A DNA stretch of 17,836 bases from Spirochaetaceae bacterium. Its GTDB lineage: Bacteria; Spirochaetota; Spirochaetia; SZUA-6; Bin103. Shown piece after piece: positions 1 through 16,229 of the stretch (position 1 is the stretch's first letter; each line of letters opens with the position of its first letter). The stretch lies in contig JAPPKD010000112.1 in assembly GCA_028820215.1 (NCBI GenBank), positions 1-17,836 on the forward strand. Direction: 5' to 3'. The translations under genes and the position numbers were made by a program. The notes under the pieces are model-generated. The model was not told where the DNA came from. It saw only the letters and a list, made by a program, of their open reading frames with translations, and did not search any database.

Positions 1-1174
1 GTCGTCCCTCCGACCCGAATCGGCCGACAGAGACCCCTACAGCGCAATTTCCTCCCGTGGTTCCGCTCTTGACGGCGAGATCGATCTCGGCCACCGCGGC
101 TGTCTTCGATCCGGGGTAGGTGAACGTCACTCCCTGTGCCGTAATGCTCGGAGCGGCTCTCACCGGGCGGGGGTCACCCATCGCCCTCCCCTCGGAGCGC
201 CGGAGAAACTCGACGAGATGTGCCGCCGTCGCACTCGCCTGATACGACTGCCCGAACAGATCGAGCATCGCGCCCGTCAAAGTCATGAATCTGCTCAAGG
301 CATAGACGACAACGGCAAACCCTCCGATGTCGATGTCACCGCGAGCGAGCAGCAGCGCTGCGAGCACGAAGCAGCCGCCGTATCCGACCAGGACGAGAAT
401 GTTGATCGCCAGGTCGATACCGCCCACACGAAGGCTCTCCCGCCATCGCTCGATGTTGAAACGGTGGAGCGTGCGTCGGTACCTCCCGAGGAGATATGAT
501 CCGATACCAAGGCATCTGGTCTCCTTGTAGTACGCGCGATCCACCAGGCATTGCTCCAGGTAGCGGAATTCACGGAGCGTCGGCACGGTCCTGCGCTCCA
601 ACCGATAGTAGCGACTTCCACGAATCAGGTGGCTCGCGATGCGGGGCGCGAAAATCACGGGAACAACGAGCGCCAGCGGTGGGGACAGTGAATGGAGGTA
701 TACGGCAGAAGCTACCAACGAAAACAACAGGAGAACCGGGTACAGAAAGCCGATCAGCATCCCGATCGCTCCCTGCATTCCCGCCTTCGCCAATTCCAGC
801 CGCTCGTTGGCGTCGAGCGTTTCGAAGTCGATGAGCTCCAGGCGTTCCGCTTTCTCGTTCATCGCCTCCGTGATGACTCCGAGGGCCTTGTCCATGAAGT
901 ATCCGGCGATGAGGTCACCGATCATGTAGAGCAGATCACGGATGAGGATAGCGACTCCGACAACCAGAATGGCCCCGACGAGATCATCGCGTACCTCGGC
1001 GTATGCGAGTTGCGACATGATGATCTCCAATCGATGAAGTACGAGGAGATCAGCGCCGGCACGGCCCGTGCCGACAAGAATGAACGCGGCCATTGCGAAC
1101 GGCGCACGGTGGGCTACCAGACCCGTAACTCTGGCAAGAGTACCCGTGAACGACGGCCTGCTGCTACGTTTCAT
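1..1174 (-). CDS. ABC exporter half-transporter ABC2' (membrane domain; nucleotide-binding domain lost or cut at the edge)
   Basis: Second subunit of a probable two-subunit ABC exporter, expected in the inner membrane. From the ATG at 1174 I translated 391 codons without a stop. The region aligns residue by residue with the membrane domain of ABC2 at 11323-13094, sharing blocks such as LIDFETLDANER, IRGSRYYRLER and GQSYxASATAxHLxEFL. The NBD begins with an A-loop-like stretch (TFTYPG, about codons 352-357). Recognisable sequence stops just after a Gly-Thr-Thr at about position 56, where the homologue continues into its Walker A. The last 18 or so codons have no P-loop. The start overlaps the stop of ABC1' by 11 bases, so the pair is translationally coupled. 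Either this copy is a C-terminally broken pseudogene or a rearrangement lies at the edge; sequence to the left would decide. Confidence 0.8.
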   Translation of the reverse strand, partial: MKRSSRPSFTGTLARVTGLVAHRAPFAMAAFILVGTGRAGADLLVLHRLEIIMSQLAYAEVRDDLVGAILVVGVAILIRDLLYMIGDLIAGYFMDKALGVITEAMNEKAERLELIDFETLDANERLELAKAGMQGAIGMLIGFLYPVLLLFSLVASAVYLHSLSPPLALVVPVIFAPRIASHLIRGSRYYRLERRTVPTLREFRYLEQCLVDRAYYKETRCLGIGSYLLGRYRRTLHRFNIERWRESLRVGGIDLAINILVLVGYGGCFVLAALLLARGDIDIGGFAVVVYALSRFMTLTGAMLDLFGQSYQASATAAHLVEFLRRSEGRAMGDPRPVRAAPSITAQGVTFTYPGSKTAAVAEIDLAVKSGTTGGNCAVGVSVGRFGSEGR

Positions 1175-3002
1175 ACCAGTGTTTCTGTGAATTGAACATC
1201 TGCGCGTACAACCGATCGCGCTGCATCAGGTCCTCGTGTGTGCCGGCCTCGACGATCGCTCCGTCGTCGATCACCAGGATCTCTTCGGCGATCTTCGTCG
1301 AACCGAGTCGGTGGCTGATGAACAGCGTTGTGAGCCCGCCGGCAACATCGGCGTACGACTGATACAGACGGCTTTCGGCAAGCGGGTCCAGCGCCGCCGT
1401 GGGCTCGTCGAGGATGCGTACGGGCGCGGCACCGGCCAGGGAGCGGGCGAGGGCGATGCGTTGCCATTCACCGCCGGACACGTCGACGCCGCCTGCCAGC
1501 ACCTTGCCCAGCGGTGTGTCGCAGCCCTGCGGCAACCTCTGGACGAGCTCGGCGAGTCCCGCGCGTTCCAGGCTACGTTCGACAACGGCATCGTCGACGT
1601 GACCGAGATTACCGAAGGCAACGTTGTCGCGCACCGTGAGCGAGTAGCGGGCGAAGTCCTGGAACACGACGCCGAACAAGCCGTTCAATGCGTCCTGAGG
1701 CCACTGCTCAATGGATCTGCCGTTGATAAGAATACGGCCGTTCGTCGGGCTATAGAGACGCAGCATAAGTTTAGTAATGGTCGACTTTCCGGATCCGTTT
1801 GCACCGACGAGTGCGTAATGATAACCGGCTTTCAGCGAGAAGCTGATGTCCACGAGGACACGTTCTTCCGTGCCGGGGTACGCGAAGCTCACACCGTCGA
1901 ACTCGATCGACTCGAACCGCTCCTCCGGCGAGCGTCGAGTGAGCGAACTCCGTGTCTCTGCCAATGATGAAAACGACGTGAGATCGACGAAAAACTCTCG
2001 ATGCTGAGCAAAACGAGAGGTGATTTCAACCAGTTGTCCCGTTACGATAGTCTCCGCTTGCAGGATTGCTAAAACCGCTGCCGTGTAGAAGGCGACGTCG
2101 ATGAGTCCGGCGCGCAGGGGTTGGAGAAGCATCAGCATGGCGATCACGATGCCTGCGACCATGAATACGCTCCCACCTCGGTAGCGGAGCCACAATCGTA
2201 CACTCAATCCGAGCCGTGAGCGACGGACTTTGGCGAACGCCGCACGCCAACGCTCGTTCACATAGTTCGAGTAGCCGAACATCGTCCGCTCTCCGGCGGC
2301 ATCGCGGCCTTGCAGCACTTCCTCAGACAGGTAGTCGGCACGGCGCAGCAGGTCTGACAGGCGACGCTGCAGGTCGTACACGAGGCGTCCTCCTCGGATG
2401 CCCAGGAGAACCATCGGCACGGTGAGCACGACCACGACGGGAACGATCCACCAGCCCAGGCGCGCCAGCACGACAGCGACTCCGATGACCCGAACGGCGA
2501 TGGTGATCAGCTCGATTCCGTCGTCGAACGCCTTCTTTACCGGACCGGTCTCCGGTTCCGATGCGACGCGATGCAGCAGGTCCCAAGTCTCAGGATTCTC
2601 AACGTATTGGTACTCGAGGCGTGCTCGCTTCTCGGTCAAGTCGGAGCGCAAACCGCGGCGAAGGTTTGCCTCGATCGCCGTGTCAGCGAGCCGGCGGACC
2701 ACCGTCTCGAGGGTTTCCACCGAGAATATCGCGAGGAGTACGATCACCGGGGCCGATAGGTCACCGAATGGCAGCCGTCCTGCCGCTACATCGAGTGCTG
2801 TCCCGATGAAGCGCTCGATTCCCAACACCAACAACGGACCGGTTGCCACTCCCGCTCCCAGCGCAAACAACAGGCGGAGCACGGCGGCCGGCGCGGCATC
2901 CTCGAATACGATCCACATTCCTCGCAACAACGTGTAACGGCGACCGGAAAAGCGGGCGCGATGAGGTGTTGCCTGGTCACGGATCCTTGCATTCGCCTTC
3001 AC
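1164..3002 (-). CDS. ABC exporter half-transporter ABC1' (membrane domain plus ATPase domain)
   Basis: A 612-residue exporter half-transporter of the MsbA/peptide-exporter type, the usual length for this family. The membrane domain covers about residues 30-335, with hydrophobic segments near 38-62, 84-98, 163-200 and 278-315. The ATPase domain has Walker A GANGSGKST (400-408), Q-loop Gln448, signature VSGGEWQR (508-515), Walker B ending ILDEP (530-534) and H-loop His564. All catalytic motifs look intact. I chose the GTG at 3002 because a purine-rich stretch (AAGGTAGGT on the coding strand) lies about 5 bases upstream and the paralogue at 9489 has a similar N-terminal extension before the first helix. 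ABC2' follows with an 11-base overlap, suggesting a heterodimer. The substrate is unknown; a small peptide is a family-based guess. Confidence 0.93.
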   Translation of the reverse strand: MKANARIRDQATPHRARFSGRRYTLLRGMWIVFEDAAPAAVLRLLFALGAGVATGPLLVLGIERFIGTALDVAAGRLPFGDLSAPVIVLLAIFSVETLETVVRRLADTAIEANLRRGLRSDLTEKRARLEYQYVENPETWDLLHRVASEPETGPVKKAFDDGIELITIAVRVIGVAVVLARLGWWIVPVVVVLTVPMVLLGIRGGRLVYDLQRRLSDLLRRADYLSEEVLQGRDAAGERTMFGYSNYVNERWRAAFAKVRRSRLGLSVRLWLRYRGGSVFMVAGIVIAMLMLLQPLRAGLIDVAFYTAAVLAILQAETIVTGQLVEITSRFAQHREFFVDLTSFSSLAETRSSLTRRSPEERFESIEFDGVSFAYPGTEERVLVDISFSLKAGYHYALVGANGSGKSTITKLMLRLYSPTNGRILINGRSIEQWPQDALNGLFGVVFQDFARYSLTVRDNVAFGNLGHVDDAVVERSLERAGLAELVQRLPQGCDTPLGKVLAGGVDVSGGEWQRIALARSLAGAAPVRILDEPTAALDPLAESRLYQSYADVAGGLTTLFISHRLGSTKIAEEILVIDDGAIVEAGTHEDLMQRDRLYAQMFNSQKHWYET

Positions 3003-3039: not shown

Positions 3040-3426
3040 TCACCAGATCGTGTCGGCTCCGAGCGCCCGAAGAGCCGGATCGGGGGTCGCGACCTTGATC
3101 TTCTGGACCATCGCCTGGGCCGCGATCATCCGGTCGAAAGGATCGCGATGGGAGTGTGGGAGGGAGCCCGCGCGCAGCGCGTGTACGCTGGCGATTGCCA
3201 GTTGGCGAAAGCCGTCCTGAGCCAACCGGTCCTCCCATTCGTCGATGACGTGGCGGCCGGCCGGGTAGTTCCCCCGCCTGTGCTGCGTCGCGATCTCCCA
3301 GGCGCTCGCGGCGCTCACCCACACCTTGTGGTGCGGATCCACAAGGAGACGCTGGACGCGCTCGCTGAGCTTGTGGGGCTCCGCCCAGGTCCACAGCAAC
3401 GTGCATGTGTCGAGCAGGAGTCTCAT
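3040..3426 (-). CDS. vapC: VapC-family PIN-domain toxin, copy 1
   Basis: A 128-residue PIN-domain protein of the VapC toxin family, which acts as a metal-dependent ribonuclease until bound by its antitoxin. The acidic residues expected of a PIN site are visible: Asp6 in LLLDTCTLLW, Glu44 in ASAWEIA, Asp95 and Asp98 in HRDPFDRM, and Asp116 in VATPDPA. Many relatives have LLLDTHALLW at the start, so Cys-Thr replaces His-Ala here. The ATG overlaps the antitoxin stop by 4 bases, which is the usual toxin-antitoxin operon order with the antitoxin first. It is about 84% identical by my count to the toxin at 7491-7877. Nothing suggests inactivation. Confidence 0.92.
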   Translation of the reverse strand: MRLLLDTCTLLWTWAEPHKLSERVQRLLVDPHHKVWVSAASAWEIATQHRRGNYPAGRHVIDEWEDRLAQDGFRQLAIASVHALRAGSLPHSHRDPFDRMIAAQAMVQKIKVATPDPALRALGADTIW

Positions 3427-3714: not shown

Positions 3715-4122
3715 CGACTCGGGACTGGGCCGGCGACCTTGCGCAGGAGACCTTCGTCCGCGCCTAGAGCCACCCTTCCGCTGCTCAGCGTCCTGTCCCT
3801 CCTGCAGCGGACGACGCTGCGGCGGGTGCTGGCGAACATCTTCGTCGACCAGTACCGGCGGAACGTACGGGAACGTGACCTGATCGCCACGCTCGATCAC
3901 GACTCGTCGGCCAGCGCCGTCGATCCTTCCCTGTCCCTGCAGGTGCGGAAGCTTCTGGGAATCCTGCCGGAACCCTGCGTGACCTGTGGTACCGCCGATA
4001 CGTGCAGGGGATGAATGCCGCGGAGATCGCCCGCCCAACTGGGCATTCCCCACGGCACCGGGCGCTCGAGACTGCATGCCGCGCGCAGGCTTCTGCGCGG
4101 GGAAGTGGAACAATATCTGTAA
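3715..4122 (+). pseudogene. Remnant of an ECF-like sigma-70 factor gene
   Basis: Pieces of a sigma-70-family (ECF-like) factor can be read in order but in three frames. First is a region-2 block, DWAGDLAQETFVRA, ending in a TAG at 3765-3767 (compare the family pattern D-x-x-DLxQETFLRA). Second, in another frame, is LRRVLANIFVDQYRRNVRERD (end of region 2, about 3808-3870). Third is a region-4 helix-turn-helix, LWYRRYVQGMNAAEIARPTG, which shifts frame near 4041 into GIPHGTGRSRLHAARRLLRG and ends at the TAA at 4120-4122. The N-terminal part of region 2 is missing. The gene would have ended 14 bases before the repeat-protein ATG at 4137, so the two were probably co-transcribed. It cannot make a working factor as read. 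Copy B has lost the gene entirely. Confidence 0.75.
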
Positions 4123-4136: not shown

Positions 4137-4626
4137 ATGAGCAACGAGGATCAGGGAATCGTCTACGGAAACATCGGCGTCCTGACATTCGCGCGGCGGA
4201 TGGGGCGGCGCTGCGGGGAATCAGGCGTAATCGGGAATCTCGGGCTGCTGCTGCATGGCCCGGACAATGCGGCTCTGGTGAACACGCTGTCCGCCGGAAA
4301 TCTCGGCTGCACCGTCAAAGCGCCGGCCCACGACAAGCTGGAGATGGTGCCGGTTCGGTGGATGCCAAGGCTCTGCGCATCCGGTCCGAACCGCTCGGGA
4401 TGGTCATCATGGGTCCGGTCATCTGCCCGGAGGACGTGGTGCCAGCACTGAGTTCGAAGACCGAATAGCAAGTGGGACCGGTCACAAGCTATCCGGTCGG
4501 TGCCAGGCTGGTCTCAATCCTGGGAGCTGAAACTCGAACACGATGCGCTCGCCACGCTGGAGGATGGTACGGCGCTCAACGTGGAGGGTCGACTCACGGT
4601 GCCGGAGCCGCTGACGGCGGATCATC
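4137..4626 (+). pseudogene. Broken copy of the repeat protein (copy A)
   Basis: Homologue of the intact gene at 8247-9419. The first part is in frame (MSNEDQGIVYGNIGVL, then VIGNLGLLLHGPDNAALVN). Damage accumulates after that: a frameshift after EMVPVR near 4358; a deletion that joins LGMVI directly to MGPVICP and removes about 25 codons present in copy B, apparently between short ATCAT repeats; and a nonsense codon TAG at 4466-4468 where copy B has CAG. Homology continues through the segment encoding LEDGTALNVEGRLTVPEPL and ends near 4626, so repeats 3 and 4 of the protein are absent. Its N-terminus and ribosome site are nevertheless better preserved than those of copy B. No function remains likely. 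Confidence 0.85.
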
Positions 4627-4697
4627 GCGGCCGCATTGCAACGCGGCGAGGACGCGTGCCACTCTCGCAAGAAAAGGTCGCAAGACAATCGATAGCA

Positions 4698-5891
4698 TCA
4701 ATTGAATTCATTTTGCAGCGGAGGAGGCCATAAGAAATTCCACATATACGCGACCTCATCCTGGGATCCATCAATAGTAACACGGATATATGGATCCAAT
4801 ATATGTTCCCAAACACGCACCACTAAATCGTGTTCAGTTCCGGTGCTCACAGCCTCTGCCGTACGCTGCCAATCAGTTTCTCGTGACCGCTGGATGTCCC
4901 GTTGCGCCCTGCGCCAGTCGTACGTACGTTCGTTGATGCTCAGTCTCCGTCGATACAGAGAGCGAATAACATATCCGCGTACCGAGTCTCTATGCCCTGT
5001 AATCTCTCGCGCACCATCCGGTAGATTCTTGGCAGAGAGAGGACGCGTCGCCCAAGGAACATCCTCAAATACATTCGACTCCTCATCCCATCTGACGCTT
5101 AATCCAGAGGCTAGCCCGCATGAACGACGAATGAAGTACGATAGGAGCGGAATTTTGACAAGCTTTGACTTCCAGTCCGCAAGCGCTTCAGTGAATTCAT
5201 CACTCGCCTCTCTCTCAGGGATTCCGCGATATTCCTCCCACAAGAGCTGTGCGGCACGATTCAACAGATCATCGTCTGGCAGATGCTTACACAAGACCGG
5301 ATTAGTGCATCGAAGCTCGTGCCAAATTTCGGAACTGGGCATAGGTAGACCACGCCAGCGGCCGCCTCGATGCATAATCAAATGTATGCTGGCACGCCAA
5401 ACGGCCAGCATGCCCTCCGGGCTGTTGGTAGGAATGTCATTCTCTGGTTCAACTAGAGCATATCGCCAGTTTTCATAGCCGCGCCCGTCCATCGACGAAA
5501 TCCCTGTCATGAACGAGGACAAATCTCGATGATGTATGTAATTGTGCAGCGACTGATAGCACCTGTAGTATGCCGTCAGATAGCTCTGGGCTTCTTGGTC
5601 GAGTGCAACGAGCAGCTTGCGTAGATCGTGATGGTTGTGTTGTCTGGTTGATCTGCGCATTTCGGGGACAGACATGCTGCAGGATGAAGCTATCAAATAC
5701 TTGAAGCTTTGCTCTATGCCGGAGTAGGAAGCTGTAATAATAGGCCAACTATTTACGAGGTTAACACTGGGTATAAAGTCATGACTAGGTGGCATATTGT
5801 CGAACAATTCTTGACAGCGCTTATACGCCATTTCGAGTCGCATTGGAACATCTGTCTCGTATGGCAGCTGCCATGATCCGCGCATACCCAT
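4698..5891 (-). CDS. Low-GC hypothetical protein with a possible HEPN-like N-terminal half
   Basis: A 397-residue protein that I do not recognise. Base composition drops to roughly 45-53% GC over sampled lines, against about 65-70% around it, and codon use differs, so it looks recently acquired. The N-terminal half is mostly helical, with SYSGIEQSFKYLI (55-67), R80-x4-H85, HHDLRKLLVAL (87-97) and HNYIHHRDLSSF (116-127). The order 'glycine-acid-lysine helix, then H-D-L helix' recalls HEPN domains, and R-x4-6-H is the motif of HEPN ribonucleases, but this is only suggestive. The C-terminal half is rich in Trp and Arg and matches nothing I know. It lies where ABC1 of copy A should be, opposite in direction. 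Several Met codons (5891, 5885, 5843) compete as the start; GAGGG upstream fits the second slightly better. An accessory or defence role is a guess. Confidence 0.75.
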   Translation of the reverse strand: MGMRGSWQLPYETDVPMRLEMAYKRCQELFDNMPPSHDFIPSVNLVNSWPIITASYSGIEQSFKYLIASSCSMSVPEMRRSTRQHNHHDLRKLLVALDQEAQSYLTAYYRCYQSLHNYIHHRDLSSFMTGISSMDGRGYENWRYALVEPENDIPTNSPEGMLAVWRASIHLIMHRGGRWRGLPMPSSEIWHELRCTNPVLCKHLPDDDLLNRAAQLLWEEYRGIPEREASDEFTEALADWKSKLVKIPLLSYFIRRSCGLASGLSVRWDEESNVFEDVPWATRPLSAKNLPDGAREITGHRDSVRGYVIRSLYRRRLSINERTYDWRRAQRDIQRSRETDWQRTAEAVSTGTEHDLVVRVWEHILDPYIRVTIDGSQDEVAYMWNFLWPPPLQNEFN

Positions 5892-6605
5892 TACCCTCAG
5901 TCTATCGATGGCACTGCGCCGGTAGAGAAGGGGCCGTGTCGGATGAATCTTGAAGATGATTGGAGGAGGGTGTCAACCCCGCTCGTGAGGGCATGGGTCG
6001 GCTCGACGAAGTTGTAGGTGTACATGAACAGCGCCACCATCGCATCATCGCATGTGGTTCTGGGCTTCCGCAGGAGTCAGTTGGGCTTCGTGAAGTGCCG
6101 CGTCCGCATTCAGTTGTGGGGTCCAAGAAGGAAGTAGATGTTGACCGTGCTGGCGGCCGCCGGCCGCTCACGTGCATGACGTGCCCAGGGTTGGCGTACG
6201 TAAGGCGTCACCAAGTTGGCGAAATCCACTTCTCCACCGAACGCCGTCGGCACGGCGTTCTTCGCGCTCGGCTGAGTGCATCTTCATTTCCGGTACACAC
6301 TCGCCGCAGACGATCGCTTGAACCACACTTGAGCACGCGAGACGCGCAACACCGCACCATCGACATCTACATGACGCTCCAACGGGGGACGATCGCAAAC
6401 TGCCCCATTACCTTCGTGACCGCCGCGCCGCGGATGCATGTGGTGCAGATACGGCGGTTGACGGATCATCCGTTCGATTCCGTCGACCTCAGGCTGCACC
6501 ACGTGCCGATGCGCCTCGTGGGCAACCCGACGCCGGTCGTTCTCGCTGTAGACGGGCCTTCTTGGCCGCCTTCAGCTGCGTACACGAATGGAGGAAGTGA
6601 CGGGG
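5892..6605. other. 714-base stretch with no confident gene
   Basis: I find no gene I would defend here. On the minus strand one frame is open from about 6560 to 6130 apart from a single TGA near 6286; it contains LERHVDVDGAVLRVSRAQVW and, after the stop, GGEVDFANLVTPYVRQPWAR. Two other minus-strand frames further down read ALHEAQLTPAEAQNHMR and VALFMYTYNFVEPTHAL. The last faintly recalls the YNFxRPHxAL end of some DDE transposases, but the order of the pieces is wrong for that. The high GC makes chance open frames common. Best described as decayed DNA between the foreign gene and the ABC2 remnant. Confidence 0.4.
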
Positions 6606-6606
6606 C

Positions 6607-6840
6607 ATGTTCGGGCAGTCCTACCGCGCCAGTGCGACCGCTTCCATCTGTTCGACTTCGTCGAACGCGACGAAGGCAGGCCGGTGGTGGTCGCAGTCAA
6701 GAGAAACCGCCAGGGACTTGACCGCCCGCAGGGTGTCATTCACCTATCCGGGAACGGACGCGGCCGCCGTCGACGACCGTGAACCTGGACCTCGCGCTGG
6801 GCACCACCGTGGCGCTGGTCGGCGCCAACGGCGCCGGGTG
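6607..6840 (+). pseudogene. Remnant of ABC2 (junction of membrane domain and ATPase domain)
   Basis: A short stretch highly similar at DNA level to 12240-12468 of ABC2. It starts at the segment encoding GQSYRASATAS, loses one C early (CTTCCATC against CTTCCCATC), and is shifted again later. It then runs through the codons for SFTYPGTDAAAVDD and, in another frame, TVALVGANGAG, where it stops abruptly inside the Walker A motif. The rest of the ATPase domain and almost all of the membrane domain are missing. Its orientation and place downstream of the broken repeat protein match the gene order of copy B, so it is most likely what remains of the ABC2 gene of copy A. Confidence 0.8.
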
Positions 6841-7425: not shown

Positions 7426-7490
7426 GGGAGCACGCTGTTCCGTCACCGCGCGCGCTGTCAACAGCTCGGCACTGCCCGCCCCTACGGCGG

Positions 7491-7877
7491 TCACCAGATC
7501 GTGTCGGCGCCGAGCGCGCCGATCGCCGGATCGGGCGTCGCGACGCTGATTCTCTGAACCATCGCCTGCGCGGCGATCATCCGGTCGAAGGGATCACGAT
7601 GGGCGTGGGGGAGGGCGCCCGCGCGCAGCGCATGTGCGCCGGCGATCGTGAGTTGGCGAAAGCCGTCCTGTGCCAGCCGGTCGTCCCACTCCTCGATGAC
7701 GTGGCAGCCCGCCGGGTAGTTGCCCAGCCGGTGCTGCGTGGCGATCTCCCAGGCGCTCGCGACGCTGACCCACACCTTGTTGTGCGGATCCTCGAGCAGT
7801 CCGCGCACCCGGCGGCTGAGCTTCTCGGGCTCTGCCCAGGCCCACAGCAGCGTGCAGGTATCGAGCAATAGCCTCAT
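7491..7877 (-). CDS. vapC: VapC-family PIN-domain toxin, copy 2
   Basis: A 128-residue PIN-domain toxin, the paralogue of the one at 3040-3426, differing at about 21 positions. The acidic site residues are all kept (Asp6, Glu44, Asp95, Asp98, Asp116). Differences cluster on the surface-like segments EKLSRRVRGLLEDPHNK and AGAHALRAGALPHAH, which may matter for antitoxin specificity. The ATG overlaps the antitoxin stop by 4 bases. Neither copy shows a stop or frameshift, whereas the neighbouring cassette genes are decaying, which fits selection to keep toxin-antitoxin pairs intact. Confidence 0.92.
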   Translation of the reverse strand: MRLLLDTCTLLWAWAEPEKLSRRVRGLLEDPHNKVWVSVASAWEIATQHRLGNYPAGCHVIEEWDDRLAQDGFRQLTIAGAHALRAGALPHAHRDPFDRMIAAQAMVQRISVATPDPAIGALGADTIW

Positions 7878-8113: not shown

Positions 8114-8246
8114 GCGGGCAGCATAGTCCTCCTCTCCTGCATCGGTCGACGAATCCGGTGCCGCGCCCGAACACTACTGGAGGCTCGTTCGTTATTCATG
8201 CAGAAGCGGGGAGGCGAAGGCGATCGTATGGCAGTGAGATGGAGCG

Positions 8247-9419
8247 GTGCGATTCGCGGCTGATGAGGCGGCGCTGCGCAAGGTCAGGCGGATCGGGAAT
8301 CTCGGGATGCTGGTGCACGGCCCGGACAACGCGGCTCTCGTGAACATGCTGTCCGTGGGCAATATCGGTTGCACCATCGAAGCGCCAGCGCACTACAAGC
8401 TGGAGGTGGCCCCGGTGCGGTTCAATGCCCAGGCGCTGCACAACCAGCCAGAGTCGCTCGGGATGATCATCTTGGCTCCTGTTGCCGTGGAGTCCGATGT
8501 CTCGGCGGAGGACATCGAGCAGTGCATTGAGCGGTTGTTCATCATGGGCCCGGTCATCTGCCCGGACAACGTTGTGGCAGCCTTGCGCTCGAAGACCGCG
8601 CAGCAAGTGGGACCGGTCACAAGCTACCCGGCCGGTGCCAGGCTCGTGTCGATCCTTGGGGCGCTGAGACTCGATTACGGTGCCGTCGCCACGCTGGAGG
8701 ATGGAACCGCGCTCAACGTGGAGGGTCGCCTGACGGTGCCGGAGCCGTTGTCGGCGGATCTGTTAGTGCGGAAGATCCGGTGGCTCAACGTGGATGGTGC
8801 GGTCCTGTGTCATGAGGAGAGCGCTCCGATCCTGCGCTCCCTGATGCCGGAGGGTTCGGGAAGATTCACGCCGTTGCCGGCCGGGTTCAAGGTTGTTGAG
8901 CGAGCGCTGAGTATCGACGGTACGTTCCTTCGGTTCAACGCGACCGAGAAGCTGTACGGTAGCGCGAGAATTACCATAGATTCCGCGGTCACCGAGGACG
9001 AGGTAGACCGGAACCTGAAGGAGCTGCGCTGCGCGGGAACGATCCTGGCGCCCGCTCGGCTGCGCGACGTACTGGCTCCCAAGTGTGACCTCGAACGGGA
9101 TCAGGTGCTGTTCTACGAGGGAACGCTGTGGCTGGAGGAGGGCAGCACGGCACTGACCACGGAGCGTTTCGCGTACCTGGAAGGGGTGGCAACCCTGATC
9201 GTCGAAGGACTGGTGACGATTCACGACACAGTGGACCCTGCCTTGCTTATGGAGCGGCTTGCCCAGGTGCACAACTACGGGACCATTCGCTGCACGCCGC
9301 CGCAAATGGGCGCGCTGCATGCGCTCATGGACCGGAACGACGGGGCGCTGGTCGACAGCACGGCCGGCGACGAAGAGGAATCGGTCGGCGTCGGCAACCT
9401 CGGCTTTCTGGCCCTGTAG
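8247..9419 (+). CDS. Repeat protein with five repeats of about 81 residues (copy B)
   Basis: A 390-residue protein of unknown family. A G-x-hydrophobic-hydrophobic element recurs at residues 20, 101, 184, 264 and 345, giving a period of 80-83. Each is preceded by an acidic start (such as VSAEDI or VTEDEV) and a helix of about 20 residues, and before that by a strand-like stretch (GRLTVPEPL, ARITIDSAV, ATLIVEGLV). This suggests alternating beta strands and helices, perhaps a solenoid. GN(I/L)G occurs at residues 17-20, 38-41 and 383-386, that is, at both ends. No signal peptide or membrane segment is visible. The start is doubtful: the GTG at 8247 has only a GGAG two bases away, and compared with copy A about 17 N-terminal residues are missing. 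It precedes ABC1 by 69 bases, so a role with the exporter is inferred. Confidence 0.85.
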   Translation: MRFAADEAALRKVRRIGNLGMLVHGPDNAALVNMLSVGNIGCTIEAPAHYKLEVAPVRFNAQALHNQPESLGMIILAPVAVESDVSAEDIEQCIERLFIMGPVICPDNVVAALRSKTAQQVGPVTSYPAGARLVSILGALRLDYGAVATLEDGTALNVEGRLTVPEPLSADLLVRKIRWLNVDGAVLCHEESAPILRSLMPEGSGRFTPLPAGFKVVERALSIDGTFLRFNATEKLYGSARITIDSAVTEDEVDRNLKELRCAGTILAPARLRDVLAPKCDLERDQVLFYEGTLWLEEGSTALTTERFAYLEGVATLIVEGLVTIHDTVDPALLMERLAQVHNYGTIRCTPPQMGALHALMDRNDGALVDSTAGDEEESVGVGNLGFLAL

Positions 9420-9488
9420 GCTCCGTGGCACCGGGAGCTGTTTCGTGAACGGATCCGGATCTTCCACGTATCCCGTGGCTGGAATGTG

Positions 9489-11336
9489 ATGCTAGGCGAG
9501 GAGCGAGGGCGCCGCCGCTTCGACAGGCGCCGCTATGGGCTCCTGAGCGGAACCTGGATCGTGTTCCAGGACGCACCGCTCGCCGCCGTGATCCGCGCCG
9601 TGGTGACGCTGTCGGCGGGCGCGGCGACCGGACCGCTGCTGGTGCTGGCGACCGAGCGCTTCATCGCCACGGCGCTCGACGTCGCCAAAGGTCAACTCCC
9701 CATGGCGGCTATCACCCTTCCGGTCATGGCGCTGGCCGCGCTGTTCGCGGTGGAGATCGTCGAAACCGCCGTGCGTTCCCTGGCTGACGCCCGGATCGAA
9801 GCAGGCTTACGGCGCGGCTTCCGAGCCGACCTGACCGAGAAGCGGGCGCGTCTGGAGTATCGCTACATCGAGACTCAGGAGACGTGGGACCTGTTGCGGC
9901 GTGTGGCCGCGGGTCCTCAGATGGAGTCCCGGCCGGCGCCCGAGCGGGGACCGGTGAAGCAGGCGTTCGACGACGGAATCGGACTGGCAGCGATCGCCGT
10001 GCGCGTGATCGGCATCGCCGCCGTGCTGGCGCGGCTGGGATGGTGGATCCTCCCCGTCGCGGTGGCGCTCATGGTTCTGTACGTGCTGCTCGGAATCGGG
10101 GGCGGGCGCCGTCTCTACGAGTTCGAGCGCCGGGCGGCGAGCCGTAGGCGCCGCGCCCAGTACCTGTCGGACGAGGTCCTTCAGGCGAGGGAGGCCGCCT
10201 CGGAGCGGGGATTGTTCGGCTATGCAGGTCTCCTGAACGGACGCTGGCGTGCCGTGTACGTCGGAGTGGTCAGGTCGTTCGTCCTGGTGAACATCCGCAA
10301 CTGGATCCGCTTCAAGGCCGCGGCCGTTCCGGCGATCGCGCTGGTGATGACTGCCATGCTGGTGCTGCTTCGGCCCCTGCAGGCCGGCACGATCGACGTC
10401 GCCTTCTACGTCGCGTCGATCATGGCGCTCCTGCACGCGGAACGTCTCGTATCGCAGGGTCTGGTGCAGATCACCTCGAGGCTCTCTCAACACCGGGAGT
10501 TCTTCGTCGATCTGACCGCGTTCTCGGCGATGGCCGAGACGCCGCGCCCGCTCACGCGGCGCGCGCCGAAGGAACTGTTTCGGTCGATCGAGTTCGCGGG
10601 GGTGAGCTTCACCTATCCCGGCACCGAGCAGCCGGTCCTGAGAGGGATCAGCTTCGTATTGGAGGCCGGCCGTCATTTCGCGCTGGTCGGCACCAACGGG
10701 TCCGGCAAGTCCACCATCGCCAAGCTGATGCTCGGTCTCTACCCTCCCGACGGCGGGCAGATCCTGATCAACGGCACCCCGATCGGCGAGTGGCAGCAGG
10801 ACGCCGTGAACGGGCTCTTCGGCGTGGTGTTCCAGGACTTCGCACGCTATTCGCTCACGGTCCGCGACAACGTCGAAGTCGCCGCGGCCGGCCGCCTTGA
10901 CGATGACGCGGTGCGGGAAAGCCTCTCAGGTGCCGGCCTCGGCGACGAATTCGTCGGACGGCTGCCGCGGGGGTACGACACGCCACTGGGCAAGGTGCTG
11001 CGCGGCGGCGTGGATGTGTCCGGCGGTGAGTGGCAGCGCCTTGCGATGGCGCGTTCACTCGCTGCTGACGCACCGATGCGCATCCTGGACGAGCCTATGG
11101 CGGCGCTGGATCCGCTGGCCGAGAGCGATCTGTATAGGTCGTACTCGCGCGCCGCGACCGGGCTGACGACGCTGTTCATCAGCCACCGCCTGGGCTCGAC
11201 CAAGATCGCAGACCGGATCCTGGTGGTCGATGGGGGTGCGATAGCCGAGTCCGGCACACATGAGGAGCTGATGCGGCAGGGCAGTCTGTACGCGCGGATG
11301 TTCACGGCGCAGAGGCACTGGTATGAGACCGGATAA
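9489..11336 (+). CDS. ABC exporter half-transporter ABC1 (copy B)
   Basis: An intact 615-residue exporter subunit, close paralogue of ABC1' at 1164-3002 (shared blocks include GLFGVVFQDFARYSLTVRDN and TLFISHRLGSTKIA). Numbering from a GTG one codon earlier at 9486, Walker A VGTNGSGKST ends at 410, Q-loop Gln450, signature VSGGEWQR 511-518, Walker B ILDEP 533-537 and H-loop His567. Membrane helices lie at about 36-60, 76-95, 168-205 and 280-320. The residues after Walker B are MAALD where ABC1' has TAALD. GTG and ATG are adjacent at 9486 and 9489; I took the ATG. No strong ribosome site is visible. It overlaps ABC2 by 14 bases with the same HWYET ending as ABC1'. Compared with ABC1' it has about five extra residues near 145-155. 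Confidence 0.93.
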   Translation: MLGEERGRRRFDRRRYGLLSGTWIVFQDAPLAAVIRAVVTLSAGAATGPLLVLATERFIATALDVAKGQLPMAAITLPVMALAALFAVEIVETAVRSLADARIEAGLRRGFRADLTEKRARLEYRYIETQETWDLLRRVAAGPQMESRPAPERGPVKQAFDDGIGLAAIAVRVIGIAAVLARLGWWILPVAVALMVLYVLLGIGGGRRLYEFERRAASRRRRAQYLSDEVLQAREAASERGLFGYAGLLNGRWRAVYVGVVRSFVLVNIRNWIRFKAAAVPAIALVMTAMLVLLRPLQAGTIDVAFYVASIMALLHAERLVSQGLVQITSRLSQHREFFVDLTAFSAMAETPRPLTRRAPKELFRSIEFAGVSFTYPGTEQPVLRGISFVLEAGRHFALVGTNGSGKSTIAKLMLGLYPPDGGQILINGTPIGEWQQDAVNGLFGVVFQDFARYSLTVRDNVEVAAAGRLDDDAVRESLSGAGLGDEFVGRLPRGYDTPLGKVLRGGVDVSGGEWQRLAMARSLAADAPMRILDEPMAALDPLAESDLYRSYSRAATGLTTLFISHRLGSTKIADRILVVDGGAIAESGTHEELMRQGSLYARMFTAQRHWYETG

Positions 11337-13094
11337 CCGGCTCTCGTACTTCCGGGTCCTCGGCCGGATGATGGCCCTCGTCGTGCGCAGGGCACCGTTC
11401 CCGTTATTGGCCTTCGTGGTCGTCGGCTTGGCGCTCATGGGCGCGAATGTATTGGTGTTCCATCTGCTGGAAGGCGTTCTGTCGCAACTCACCGACCGCG
11501 AGCCGTTGAGTCAGCTCGCCGGAGCAATTCTCGTCGCCGGAGCCGTGATCGTGCTCCGAGAGGTGCTCGAGATGGTGTCCGATCCCATTGCGGCGTACGT
11601 GTGGGGAACGACCACCGCGGTGTTGACCGGGGCGATGAATCAGAAGGTCGAGCGGCAGGAAGTCATCGATTTCGAGACCCTGGATGCGAACGAGCGCGTG
11701 GAGTTGGCCCAGGCCGGTATCGTGAATGCGCTCAGCACGCTCATGGCCTTTCTGTTTCCGGTCTTCCAGTTGACGTTCTTCGCGGCCGCAGCGATCTATC
11801 TCTTTTCGCTCTCTCCCGTGTTGGCTCTGGTCGTTCCCCTTACCTTCTTGCCTCGCATTGTGAGTCATCTCGTTCGAGGAAGTCGTTACTATCGGCTTGA
11901 GCGAAAGACCGTGCCGATGCTCCGGGAGTTCCAGTACCTGGAGCGCTGTCTGACGGATCGCGAGTACTTCAAGGAGACGCGCATCCTGGGAGCCGGGTCC
12001 CGGCTGGCGCGGCGGTACCGAAATACGCTGAGGCGCTTCAATGTGGAGCGATGGCGCGAGGATCTCTGGATCGGCGGCATCGATCTTGGGCTGAGCGTCC
12101 TGGTGTTGCTCGGTTACGCAGGCTCCTTCGTGCTGGCGGCGTTCCTGCTGGCGGACGGGAGCATCGTGTCGGCGGCTTCGCCGTGGTCATCTACGCGGTG
12201 AGCCGGCTCATGATGATGACGCGCGCCGTGATGGACATGCTTGGACAGTCCTACCGCGCCAGTGCGACCGCTTCCCATCTGTTCGAATTCCTGGAGCGGG
12301 ACGAAGGCCGGCCGATGGGCGATCGCGCTGGCGAGACGGGCGGGACCGTGACGGCCCGCCGGTTGTCATTCACCTATCCCGGAACCGATACGGCGGCCGT
12401 CGACGACGTGAGCGTGGACCTCGCGCCCGGCACCACCGTCGCGCTGGTCGGCGCCAACGGCGCCGGCAAGACCACCCTGGCCAAGCTGCTCCTGGGGCTC
12501 TACGTCCCGAGCAGCGGCGACGTCATGCGGGGCGCCGTCAACACGCGAGACGCGACCAAACAGGACATCCGCGAGCGCACCTCCGCCGTCTTCCAGAACT
12601 TCCAGCGCTACCAGATGACGCTGCGCGACAACGTCGCCCTGGCCGACGTAACCCGCGCGGAGGACGAGGCGGCGGTGATCCGGGCGCTCGAACGGGGCGG
12701 GGTGCCCGCGGAGCTGTGGCAGGGAGAGGAAGGGCTCGACCTGATGCTGTCGCGCGAGTTCGGGACGCGCGACCTGTCGCTCGGGCAATGGCAGCGCGTC
12801 GCGATCGCCCGCGGACTGTTCCGGGAGCACGACCTGATCCTGCTCGACGAGCCGACCGCCTCGATCGACCCGCTGGAGGAACAGGCGGTGTACGAGCGGT
12901 TCATGGAGATCGCAGCCGGCCGCACGGCGATCCTGGTCACGCACCGGCTTGGCTCGGCACGGCTGGCGGACCGGATCCTGGTGATGCGGGACGGCCGCAT
13001 CGTCGAGGACGGCACGCACCGGCAACTGCTTGAACGGCGCGGCCTGTACCACCAGATGTTCACGGCACAAGCCGACTGGTACGAGCGAAGCTGA
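11323..13094 (+). pseudogene. ABC exporter half-transporter ABC2 (copy B), broken by a one-base deletion
   Basis: Second exporter subunit. It reads in frame from the ATG at 11323 through the membrane domain to about 12168, then continues in another frame to the TGA at 13094. Comparison with ABC2' pinpoints a one-base deletion: ABC2' has 27 bases encoding GDIDIGGFA where this gene has 26. With the base restored it would be about 590 residues. The ATPase domain is complete: Walker A GANGAGKTT, Q-loop FQNF, signature LSLGQWQR (Leu for the usual second Gly), Walker B LILLDEP and H-loop THRLGS. A single lesion in an otherwise clean gene could be a sequencing or assembly error. If real, this copy makes a 292-residue membrane fragment with no ATPase. 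Confidence 0.9.
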
Positions 13095-13744: not shown

Positions 13745-14920
13745 ATGAGCGTGGTGAAGCAGCCTCACAAGATCCTCGTGGTCGACGACGAGCCGGACGT
13801 CGAGCCGCTGATCCGGCAGCGGATGCGGCGTGACGTCCGCGCCGGCAAGTACGAGTTCGTGTTCGCCCGCGACGGGGTGGAAGCCCTGGAGATGCTGGAG
13901 CAGCATGCCGACATCGACATGGTCCTGTCCGACATCAACATGCCGAAGATGGACGGACTGACCCTGCTGGCGCAGATCGCCAAGGTGGACCCCAACCTGC
14001 GCTGCGTCATCGTCTCCGCGTACGGCGACATGGAGAACATCCGCACGGCGATGAACCGGGGGGCCTTCGACTTCGTCACCAAGCCGCTCGACTTCGCGGA
14101 TCTGCGGGTGACCATCGACCGGACGTTGCGCCGGGTGGCCGAGTGGCGCGAGGCGCTGGAGTCGCGGGACAAGCTGGTCGTGCTCCAGAACGAGCTGGAC
14201 CTGGCCAGCAAGATGCAGCAGTCGATCCTTCCCACCCGGTTCCCGGAGGGGCCGGACTTCCGGATCCACGGCCACATGGAGCCGGCGCGCGCCGTCGGAG
14301 GCGACTTCTTCGACGTCATGCCGCTGGAGAACGGCCGCATCGGCGTGGCGATCGCCGATGTCTCGGACAAGGGCGTGCCGGCCTCCCTGTTCATGATGTC
14401 GACGCGTACCCTGCTCAAGGGCGCGTCCGTCGGCCTCGGCGAACCGGGCGAGGTGATGGGCGAGGTCAACGATCTGCTCAACGACGACAACGAGGCGGCG
14501 ATGTTCGTCACCGTCTTCTACGCGACCTATGACCCGGCGAGCGGGGCGTTCACCTACGCCAACGGCGGACACAACTCACCGCTGCTGGTGCGCGCCGACG
14601 GCAGCTCGGAGCTGCTGCCGCTGACCGACGGGCTCGCGTTGGGGGTGATGCCGGGCTACCACTACGGACAGCACTCCATCACCATCGAGCCCGGCTCCAC
14701 CCTGGTCCTGTACACCGACGGGGTGACCGAGGCGATGAACGACGTCAAGGAGGAGTTCGGAGTGGAGCGCCTGCAGGCGATCTTCGCCGGCGCTCCGCCG
14801 GGAGACAGCGGGGCGAGCAGCCAGGCGGTCTTCGATGCCGTGCACGCGTTCGCCGGCGACACGCCGCAATCGGACGACGTGACCTGTCTGACGCTCTCCC
14901 GGGGCGAGTTCGGGACGTGA
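13745..14920 (+). CDS. Response regulator fused to a SpoIIE/RsbU-type PP2C phosphatase
   Basis: A 391-residue cytoplasmic signalling protein. Residues 8-130 are a receiver domain with the acidic pair Asp14-Asp15 (ILVVDDE), phospho-acceptor Asp63 (LSDINMPKMDG), Ser91 and Lys113 (VTKPLD). A helical linker (131-165, ending ASKMQQSILP) is typical before this phosphatase type. The PP2C-like domain follows: AVGGDFFDV (183-191), IADVSDKGVPASL (203-215), YANGGHNSPL (271-280), YTDGVTEAM (323-331) and SDDVT (376-380); its acidic metal ligands are present. Proteins like this dephosphorylate an anti-sigma-factor antagonist when the receiver is phosphorylated, and so release a sigma factor. No antagonist or anti-sigma gene is in the window. 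The likely phospho-donor is the kinase at 16226. Confidence 0.95.
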   Translation: MSVVKQPHKILVVDDEPDVEPLIRQRMRRDVRAGKYEFVFARDGVEALEMLEQHADIDMVLSDINMPKMDGLTLLAQIAKVDPNLRCVIVSAYGDMENIRTAMNRGAFDFVTKPLDFADLRVTIDRTLRRVAEWREALESRDKLVVLQNELDLASKMQQSILPTRFPEGPDFRIHGHMEPARAVGGDFFDVMPLENGRIGVAIADVSDKGVPASLFMMSTRTLLKGASVGLGEPGEVMGEVNDLLNDDNEAAMFVTVFYATYDPASGAFTYANGGHNSPLLVRADGSSELLPLTDGLALGVMPGYHYGQHSITIEPGSTLVLYTDGVTEAMNDVKEEFGVERLQAIFAGAPPGDSGASSQAVFDAVHAFAGDTPQSDDVTCLTLSRGEFGT

Positions 14921-14960: not shown

Positions 14961-16229
14961 ATGAAACCCCGGCGTCGCGCGGGCACGGCGCCCGTCGCGG
15001 TCCTTACCGGCTCGGCGCTGCTCGCGATGCTGCTGTCCTGCAGCCCGGCCGACCAGCCCGCCGTCACGGAAGCGCCGGCCGGCCGCACGGAGCAGGCGAG
15101 CGCCGCCGCACCCGCCGAACCCGCGCGCGGACCGGTCCCCGGCGTGTCGCCGACGCACGTTCTGTTCGGGCAGTCCGCCGCCTTCAGCGGCCCGGCGAGG
15201 GAGCTGGGCCGGAACATGCGGCTGGGTATCGAGGCGGCGTTCCAGGAGGCCAACAGCGGCGGCGGCATCCACGGCCGGCGGCTGGAGCTGGTGACCCTCG
15301 ACGACGCCTACGAGCCGGAGGCGGCGATCGCCAACACCGTCCACCTGATCGAGGAGCACCGCGTGTTCGCCCTGATCGGCGCGGTCGGCACGCCCACCTC
15401 GCGATCCGCCACGCCGGTCGCCGCGGAGGCGGCGGTGCCGTACATCGCCCCGTTCACCGGCGCCGAGTTCCTGCGCGACCCCGAGTGGGACAACATTCTC
15501 AACCTGCGCGCCTCCTACTACCAGGAGACCGAGGAGATGGTCGCGCGCCTGACCGAGGACCTGGGCGTGACCCGCATCGGGGTGCTGTACCAGGACGACT
15601 CGTTCGGCCGCGCGGGCTACCGCGGCGTGCGGCTGGCGCTGGACCGGCGTGCCATGCAGCCGGTGTCGATCGGTCTCTACCCGCGCAACACGACCGCCGT
15701 GAAGACCGCGCTGCTCGACCTGCGGCGGGGCGATCCGGAGGCGGTGATCATGATCGGCGCCTACCAGCCGGTGGCGGCCCTGATCACCTGGGCGCGCCAC
15801 GTGGGAATGGACCCGACCTTCCTCACCGTCTCCTTCGTGGGCAGCAACGCCCTGGCCGAGGAGCTCGGACCGTCAGGCGAGGGGGTCTACGTGACGCAGG
15901 TGGTGCCGTTCCCGGCCGACGACTCGCTGCCGGTAGTGGGTGCCTACCTGCGTGCCCTGGCGGCTTACGACCCGGAGGCGGAGCCCGGCTTCGTGTCCTT
16001 CGAGGGGTATCTGGCCGGCCGGCTGGCGGCCGCCGGGGTCGCCGGCTGCGGCGGGGAGGTCACGCGCGACTGCTTCCTCGGGAGCTTGCGCGCCAGTGAC
16101 GCGATCGACATCGACGGCTTCCGGCTCCGCTACGGCGACGCCGACAACCAGGGCTCCGACGCAGTGTTCCTGACGCGGATCGGTGCGGACGGCCGCTACC
16201 GGCCCGCCGCCACCCTGCGCGGGCGATGA
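14961..16229 (+). CDS. Branched-chain-amino-acid-type solute-binding lipoprotein
   Basis: A 422-residue type I periplasmic binding protein (Peripla_BP_6/LivJ-like). The N-terminus is a lipoprotein signal (MKPRRR, a hydrophobic run, then LLSC with Cys27 as the lipidated residue), followed by an Ala/Pro-rich tether to about residue 55. The binding domain has the family start LFGQSAAFSGPARELGRNMR, then IHGRRLELVTLDDAYEP, LIGAVGTPTS, APFTGAEFLRDP, IGVLYQDDSFGRAGYRG and VSFEGYLAGRLAA. GGGAG stands 3 bases before the ATG. It is unusual for this family that no permease or ATPase gene adjoins it. Instead its stop overlaps the kinase start as ATGA. I infer a sensory role, with the liganded protein presented to the kinase, rather than uptake. 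Confidence 0.92.
   Translation: MKPRRRAGTAPVAVLTGSALLAMLLSCSPADQPAVTEAPAGRTEQASAAAPAEPARGPVPGVSPTHVLFGQSAAFSGPARELGRNMRLGIEAAFQEANSGGGIHGRRLELVTLDDAYEPEAAIANTVHLIEEHRVFALIGAVGTPTSRSATPVAAEAAVPYIAPFTGAEFLRDPEWDNILNLRASYYQETEEMVARLTEDLGVTRIGVLYQDDSFGRAGYRGVRLALDRRAMQPVSIGLYPRNTTAVKTALLDLRRGDPEAVIMIGAYQPVAALITWARHVGMDPTFLTVSFVGSNALAEELGPSGEGVYVTQVVPFPADDSLPVVGAYLRALAAYDPEAEPGFVSFEGYLAGRLAAAGVAGCGGEVTRDCFLGSLRASDAIDIDGFRLRYGDADNQGSDAVFLTRIGADGRYRPAATLRGR

Follow-up and report, generated by a model that had tools for sequence, protein, structure and literature searches.

A decayed sigma factor–repeat protein locus in a Spirochaetaceae bacterium, possibly a member of a widespread self-controlled two-gene unit

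Introduction

Positions 1 to 17,836 of contig JAPPKD010000112.1 (assembly GCA_028820215.1, Spirochaetaceae bacterium), a stretch of 17,836 nucleotides hereafter called the window, carry two copies, A and B, of a locus that associates a gene encoding an internally repeated protein (the repeat protein) with genes of ATP-binding cassette (ABC) half-transporters and, in copy A, with the remnant of a gene encoding an extracytoplasmic function (ECF) sigma factor. In other bacteria, an ECF sigma gene lies directly upstream of the repeat gene in 26 of the 29 loci found with the repeat protein. We give about even chances to the reading that the window holds a decayed representative of a widespread two-gene unit under its own control, in which the sigma factor would be accompanied by a soluble solenoid protein that regulates it.

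The two copies of the locus

The features of copy B, preceded by its promoter, are as follows.

8170..8195, + strand: ECF-type promoter AACAC-N15-CGTTAT; the same motif precedes sigma genes in other genomes
8247..9419, + strand: repeat (predicted solenoid) protein gene, copy B; 390 open codons, the family's first 19 codons missing, homologous part from 8256
9486..11336, + strand: ABC1, exporter half-transporter with membrane part and ATPase; open (open reading frame, or ORF, list and family scans)
11323..13094, + strand: ABC2, second half-transporter; two overlapping frames, 11323-12201 and 12051-13094

The features of copy A are as follows.

1164..3002, - strand: ABC1 paralogue, 612 residues, open, inverted and displaced; 65% identical to ABC1 of copy B
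3805..4122, + strand: ECF sigma factor gene remnant with internal frame breaks and a stop; not preceded by a promoter of the conserved type
4137..4634, + strand: repeat protein gene, a pseudogene with frame breaks and stops that keeps its native start (tblastn of the relative P0001, E 2e-33; three-frame reading)
6603..6837, + strand: ABC2 remnant, recognised by the direct repeats D5, D6, D8 and D9, 80-92% identical to 12233-12466

The 390-residue ORF reported by the initial annotation does exist in the ORF list and has at least 35 relatives at 47-95% identity in a collection of 5.8 billion proteins. It is open throughout but does not correspond to a full gene product, being truncated at its 5' end. 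Indeed, full-length relatives have about 408 residues and begin with MSNEDQG..YGNIGVLDIR, and residues 20-406 of P0001, which is 95% identical, align with window positions 8256-9416; these alignments make it very unlikely that the GTG at 8247 is the original start codon. The promoter directly precedes this truncated gene, with no sigma gene in between. The gene had also been placed directly upstream of a coupled ABC1-ABC2 pair: ABC1 is open and follows after 66 bases, but ABC2 is split over two frames. Both proteins belong to the ABC half-transporter superfamily according to Pfam and NCBIfam scans.

In copy A, the sigma remnant was found at 3805-4107 by tblastn with the sigma proteins of the loci L001, L030 and others (best E 1e-5). 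As initially annotated, the repeat gene follows this remnant by 14 bases, from the stop TAA at 4120-4122 to the ATG at 4137. Three stretches of the repeat gene (D2-D4, 102-130 nt) are shared by the two copies at 84-87% identity, and the motif search of the window gave no promoter of the conserved type in copy A. Both copies are thus decayed relics, and the window contains no working unit. With no sigma gene in copy B and only a broken one in copy A, the window copy would be unable to work as the switch proposed below.

A predicted cytosolic solenoid

The five repeats of about 81 residues initially described are only partly borne out. Repetition is real: the self-alignment score is 83, whereas shuffled sequences average 32 (z 11.8), and the offsets of 161-163 correspond to two units of about 81 residues. 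However, in the model of P0001 (39 sequences; pLDDT 91.6, pTM 0.77), the secondary-structure string has units beginning near residues 87, 170, 251 and 331, which suggests four full units after a divergent N-terminal region, not five equal ones. Short strands and helices alternate regularly in this model, with about three strand-strand-helix turns per 81 residues or so, and a protein of the Butyrivibrio branch is modelled with a similar alternation (pLDDT 86.1, pTM 0.61). Because of these strings (read as strings, not as coordinates), of the periodicity and of short matches resembling leucine-rich repeats (LRR), the repeat protein is predicted to be an LRR-like solenoid.

The family differs from leucine-rich repeat proteins in that no LRR family occurs among the Pfam matches of its 39 members. 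A Foldseek comparison gave, among the matches listed, TM-scores below 0.2 and none at E <= 1e-3. No close solved structural relative was found and no sequence relative is present in the PDB. Neither Pfam nor NCBIfam has a family of the repeat protein's own; in scans with the 390-residue protein itself, Pfam gave only two matches, both weak (E 0.03 and 0.09), and NCBIfam gave none. Inspection by eye reveals no evident signal peptide, and the highest 19-residue hydropathy is 1.07-1.49 in 10 of 11 family proteins and reaches a borderline 1.74 in the protein of L030, against 2.43 for an ABC control, so that the 11 proteins have no clear membrane segment. For these reasons, the repeat protein is taken as probably cytosolic.

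Single repeats resemble the C-terminal part of PF17723 (RHH_8), which matches 13 of the 39 family members at E 0.01 (best E 1.1e-6). In the three proteins with the match shown, it covers only profile positions 65-115 of 119 and lies inside single repeats; no ribbon-helix-helix part was matched in the repeat proteins. RHH_8 proteins are short, with a DNA-binding domain at the N-terminus and then about one unit, whereas the present family has several units. As PF17723 proteins are regulators, this likeness is a second link between the unit and the control of transcription. The family searches also matched three short proteins, two of which (L008, L009) are ribbon-helix-helix-like, look PF17723-like and seem to have about one solenoid unit at their C-terminus.

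Several cysteines are invariant or nearly so within branches (CPD and KCDL; INCxxCDAR in Butyrivibrio), which would suit a variant of the regulatory reading in which solenoid cysteines bind metal or report redox state and so act as a gate on the sigma factor, which ZAS anti-sigma factors achieve in a different way. However, these cysteines are not conserved across branches and several occupy repeated positions, where they may only pack the core; we regard this variant as very improbable.

Distribution of the family

The family is patchily distributed, and its size is a lower bound, since the searches scored only about 8,000 candidates sharing most words. Among named genomes, two distant relatives, about 30% identical, were found in metagenome-assembled genomes (MAGs) of Halobacteroidaceae (L001) and Oligoflexia (L002). 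In profile and protein searches, whose counts include the query's own genome, matches were obtained in 7 of 398 genomes of the phylum of L001, in 1 of 290 of that of L002, in 17 of 99 relatives of G144 and 10 of 391 genomes of its class, in 2 of 101 relatives of G058 (one of them discounted as false) and 1 of 13 genomes of its class, and in 1 of 4 genomes of the class of G074. Three matches of the L001 phylum were later dropped (G313, G243 and G193, short proteins that include L008 and L009), as were G700 (a 58-residue fragment) and G088 (608 residues, encoded in another gene cluster and regarded as a false match). Protein searches place one branch in Butyrivibrio and another in Cytobacillus. 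The profiles of the Butyrivibrio and window branches, although very diverged, still match each other (hhalign probability 96%, E 1.9e-9, 225 columns).

Linkage with an ECF sigma gene

The 26 sigma-linked loci take in Bacillota and the Oligoflexia MAG; the 29 loci exclude L131-L133, which were found by the promoter search described below. A first set of 20 (L001, L002, G058, G074, G144, G707, G745, G726, G715, G716, G748, G727, G702, G724, G701, G693, G696, G728, G699 and G706) has the sigma gene directly upstream in 17 cases, and a later independent set, from the class of G144, in nine out of nine, one of them frame-broken. In L001 and L002, the sigma gene has 153 codons, and 17 and 21 bases separate its end from the repeat gene.

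These sigma factors are of the minimal ECF type, with about 150 residues and only the sigma2 and sigma4 domains. Sigma70_r2 and r4_2 score above the Pfam cut-offs in the proteins of L001, L002, L146, L148, L046 and L030, and TIGR02937 scores above its cut-off for those of L001 and L002. Across branches, the sigma proteins of eight loci share 27-50% pairwise identity.

Inspection by eye, by which neighbouring genes were judged throughout unless a family search is cited, revealed no neighbour other than the sigma gene common to all branches, the others being shared only within branches. For instance, a gene with a DLDGT motif, which we take to be HAD-like, follows the unit in several loci of the Butyrivibrio branch. 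In L150 and L151, the unit is directly followed by tandem genes (about 7.2-12.5 kb) that have near-identical N-termini, M..TKK.LWL.AVS.MLC..MLLGTTFAWFTDSV.N..N.I.AG, and look by eye like secreted or surface proteins.

A conserved promoter upstream of the sigma gene

ECF-type promoters have the consensus AAC at -35 and CGT at -10. The site at 8170-8195 is the only match to the 11-base motif in the window, even with one mismatch allowed (0.06 expected by chance; 11 of 200 shuffles had one), and it retains an intact 11-base core in a lineage different from those of the loci that were the source of the motif. In the first set, a site with at most 1/11 mismatch lies upstream of the sigma gene in 12 of 17 cases, the loci L131-L133 being again excluded, versus 0 of 165 upstream regions of other ORFs (Fisher p 3e-15); these controls are ORFs of at least 120 codons from the same loci and may include spurious ones, and the test is partly circular, since the pattern was read off the first-set loci, many of which are related.

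Most sigma-repeat loci share a longer, 16-base form, AACACTTT-N12-CGTTATAT. When 294 relatives were searched for its exact DNA sequence, 15 sites turned up, spread over 14 genomes, against none for the reversed control. Eleven of these sites precede a sigma-repeat operon; the others lie before an exporter in G707, at the scar of a lost unit in G693, at a contig end in G701 and in G708, where no unit stands behind the site. Four of the genomes hit were not previously known to hold the unit, and in three (G794, G796 and G798) the operon lies right behind the site. Furthermore, eight of the nine later loci have the promoter upstream of the sigma gene with at most 2/16 mismatches and no other such site, where the chance of such a site is roughly 3 in 10,000 per upstream region (104 sites in about 73 Mb). 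The window site, the DNA search and the later loci are less circular tests than the first-set comparison, and all three agree. The position of this promoter suggests that the sigma factor may regulate its own operon.

A small predicted regulon and optional exporters

Outside the sigma-repeat operon, exact 16-base sites are rare; the regulon therefore looks tiny and would be limited to this operon, with an exporter added in two genomes. G058 has only two exact sites, one before the sigma gene and the other between the repeat gene and ABC1 (L046, 7560-7587, with ABC1 starting at 7640). The second exact site of G707, distant from the unit, precedes a transporter of the MFS_3 type and an FtsX permease.

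The initial annotation had inferred that the repeat protein acts as a scaffold, polymer or substrate in a system that would make, sense or export something, and had named recurrence of the order sigma-repeat-ABC1-ABC2 in unrelated genomes as a test. The sigma-repeat pair does recur in unrelated genomes, but among the 29 loci the full order was found in only one, that of G058 (L046). The gene immediately downstream encodes a likely exporter in only 4 of the 29 loci (an ABC in L046 and transporters of the major facilitator superfamily, MFS, in L034, L035 and L039), L035 being judged by its likeness to L034, the rest partly by eye, and some loci ending close by. Other next genes encode an alpha/beta hydrolase (L030) or a CAAX-protease-like protein (L040), and in L154, L146 and L148 ABC genes lie upstream of the sigma gene.

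Such a dedicated export system, with the repeat protein as cargo, scaffold or polymer of the exporter, would agree with the order common to the window (where the sigma gene is the copy A remnant) and G058, with the sigma promoter before the G058 exporter and with the MFS transporters that follow the unit in three loci. Moreover, P0021, a frameshifted protein on another contig, ends in a sequence matching by eye the start of ABC1, so that this neighbourhood recurs in the window's clade. However, the ABC proteins of the window and G058 are 25-38% identical and thus only generally similar, adjacent exporters are few and of different kinds, no ABC of the peptidase type is present, and the repeat proteins have no evident signal peptide, with one borderline hydrophobic stretch in L030. 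A dedicated export system is therefore improbable, and a scaffold, polymer or substrate role is not supported, since the protein lacks an evident signal peptide or clear membrane segment and the exporter is usually not next door. The exporters look rather like repeated, optional add-ons.

The view that this is no standard bacteriocin locus holds, as Pfam revealed no peptidase domain or modifying enzyme among 10 window proteins. In NCBIfam, the ABC proteins score far below the cut-offs of TIGR03796, TIGR03797 and TIGR01193. Features of bacteriocin or NHLP export were not found in the window proteins, in a search that did not extend to short precursor peptides.

Regulator or effector

Gene order, the promoter motif before most sigma genes, the rarity of its exact copies and the predicted secondary-structure pattern can be read from the sequences themselves. 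A sigma factor with a soluble regulator fits these data best, because the sigma gene comes first and its partner second, the promoter is shared and of the type expected for self-control, the solenoid is likely cytosolic and of a binding type, and no other neighbour is shared. The sigma factor would transcribe its own operon from the conserved promoter, and the solenoid of about 400 residues would bind in the cytoplasm either the sigma factor or a signal controlling it. The solenoid would thus be a soluble regulator, most simply an anti-sigma factor or sensor made in step with the sigma factor. An internal signal would relieve this control, the sigma factor would then amplify itself and, in some lineages, would switch on an exporter (ABC pair or MFS). 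The solenoid-sigma interaction and the anti-sigma function are predictions from gene position, likely cotranscription and the likely cytosolic character of the protein.

Several observations weigh against this scheme. In two of the 29 loci (L033 and L041, genomes G726 and G693), the repeat gene is intact but both the sigma gene and the promoter are missing, and in a third (L036, G748) the sigma gene is reduced to a 65-residue fragment beside an intact repeat gene. The rest of G693 gave no sigma factor of this type, and G726 nothing closer than a 27%-identical ECF. Were the repeat protein purely an anti-sigma factor, it would be expected to disappear along with the sigma factor; intact repeat genes without it fit an effector better. 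The repeat protein is far larger than the familiar soluble anti-sigma factors and has no known anti-sigma domain: no anti-sigma family was matched in Pfam (39 members, E 0.01), nor any NCBIfam model by the three repeat proteins scanned. The promoter has 2/11 mismatches in G728, G699 and G706, as in 8 of the 165 controls, and 3/11 in G074 and G701 (the G701 contig begins 188 bases before the sigma gene), and L147 lacks it upstream of the sigma gene. Genome-wide, neither the 11-base pattern (44 sites versus 49 for the reversed control) nor the 16-base pattern with two mismatches (104 versus 104) is enriched. Finally, exporters near the unit are not universal, and the scanned exporters have no second promoter apart from that of G058 and the distant site of G707; at the MFS loci L034, L035 and L039, no second good site was found.

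The scar in G693 (L081, G693:C4, from about 5457 downwards) consists of an exact promoter followed by operon scraps that end in the typical C-terminus of the repeat protein; the orphan repeat gene of this genome lies on another contig.

Alternatively, the sigma factor could serve mainly to produce the solenoid, which would be made on demand as a binder or scaffold in the cytosol and, for example, sequester a harmful ligand; the sigma factor itself would be controlled otherwise, for example transcriptionally. The repeat gene is indeed often the sole non-sigma gene directly behind the exact promoter, intact copies outlive the sigma gene as described above, and ECF factors that lack anti-sigma partners are known (PMC8999054). 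However, a sigma factor with its own operon as one target would then need another brake, and no other neighbour is shared across branches as judged by eye. We consider such an effector role possible, though somewhat doubtful.

A broader version of the regulatory reading can be put forward, tentatively and at less than even chances: LRR-like solenoids may form a new class of soluble ECF partners that wrap the sigma factor and double as cytosolic ligand sensors. The unit would then be a self-contained mobile switch whose only universal target is itself, exporters would have been recruited later in various lineages by promoter copying, and the ribbon-helix-helix fusion of PF17723 would represent a one-component version.

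Other genes of the window

A PIN-domain toxin-like gene is present in two copies, 3040-3426 (-) and 7487-7786 (-), 87% identical over 300 nt, each just left of one sigma-repeat copy; it seems to have been duplicated together with the unit. Between copies A and B, a 397-codon ORF (4698-5891, -) has no match in Pfam, NCBIfam or PADLOC. The region that holds it, 4501-6500, has 51-55% G+C versus about 59-74% in the rest of the window and is possibly an insertion into copy A. Downstream of copy B, Pfam identifies a response regulator with a SpoIIE phosphatase domain (13745-14920, +), followed by a Peripla_BP_6 substrate-binding protein (14961-16229, +); these two genes could form a separate signalling operon.

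Relationship to known systems and significance

ECF sigma factors are a main means of stress sensing in bacteria. As in canonical pairs of an ECF factor and a cotranscribed anti-sigma factor (soluble ZAS type, such as ChrR and RshA), the sigma gene comes first here, with the partner directly behind and an ECF-type promoter in front; unlike them, the partner is a predicted solenoid of about 400 residues without a recognised anti-sigma, zinc-binding or transmembrane domain.

The SigY operon of Bacillus subtilis combines in one locus an autoregulated ECF sigma factor, unusual partners and an ABC transporter, with a very small regulon; its partners (YxlC/D/E) are small membrane-associated proteins and are not known to include a solenoid protein. 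The present unit resembles it in its probable autoregulation, its unusual partner and its apparently very small regulon. The SigY model NF007216 matches the sigma proteins only far below its cut-off (56.8 and 61 bits versus 194). ABC1 and ABC2 belong to the same superfamily as half-transporters of the MsbA/HlyB type but stay below the cut-off of each of the best 25 NCBIfam matches listed per protein, and carry no Pfam peptidase domain.

Few types of ECF partners are described in the parts consulted of the reviews PMC8999054 and PMC8103513. The soluble ones named in the former are ZAS proteins, NepR, CfrX, Asp23-family proteins and ECF121 anti-sigma-like proteins, and its section 2 describes no solenoid among them. 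No description of a sigma-solenoid unit was found in the literature searched, which left subscription papers mostly outside. The novelty would thus lie in the partner, which would be of a type new for ECF sigma factors.

Thanks to the conserved promoter, the regulatory question can be tested directly, the regulon being predicted to comprise only one or two promoters in each genome, and the sigma-promoter pair might serve as an orthogonal pair for synthetic circuits. More largely, a recognisable sigma factor and a large predicted solenoid without any Pfam or NCBIfam family have been kept together across very distant bacteria, including Butyrivibrio.

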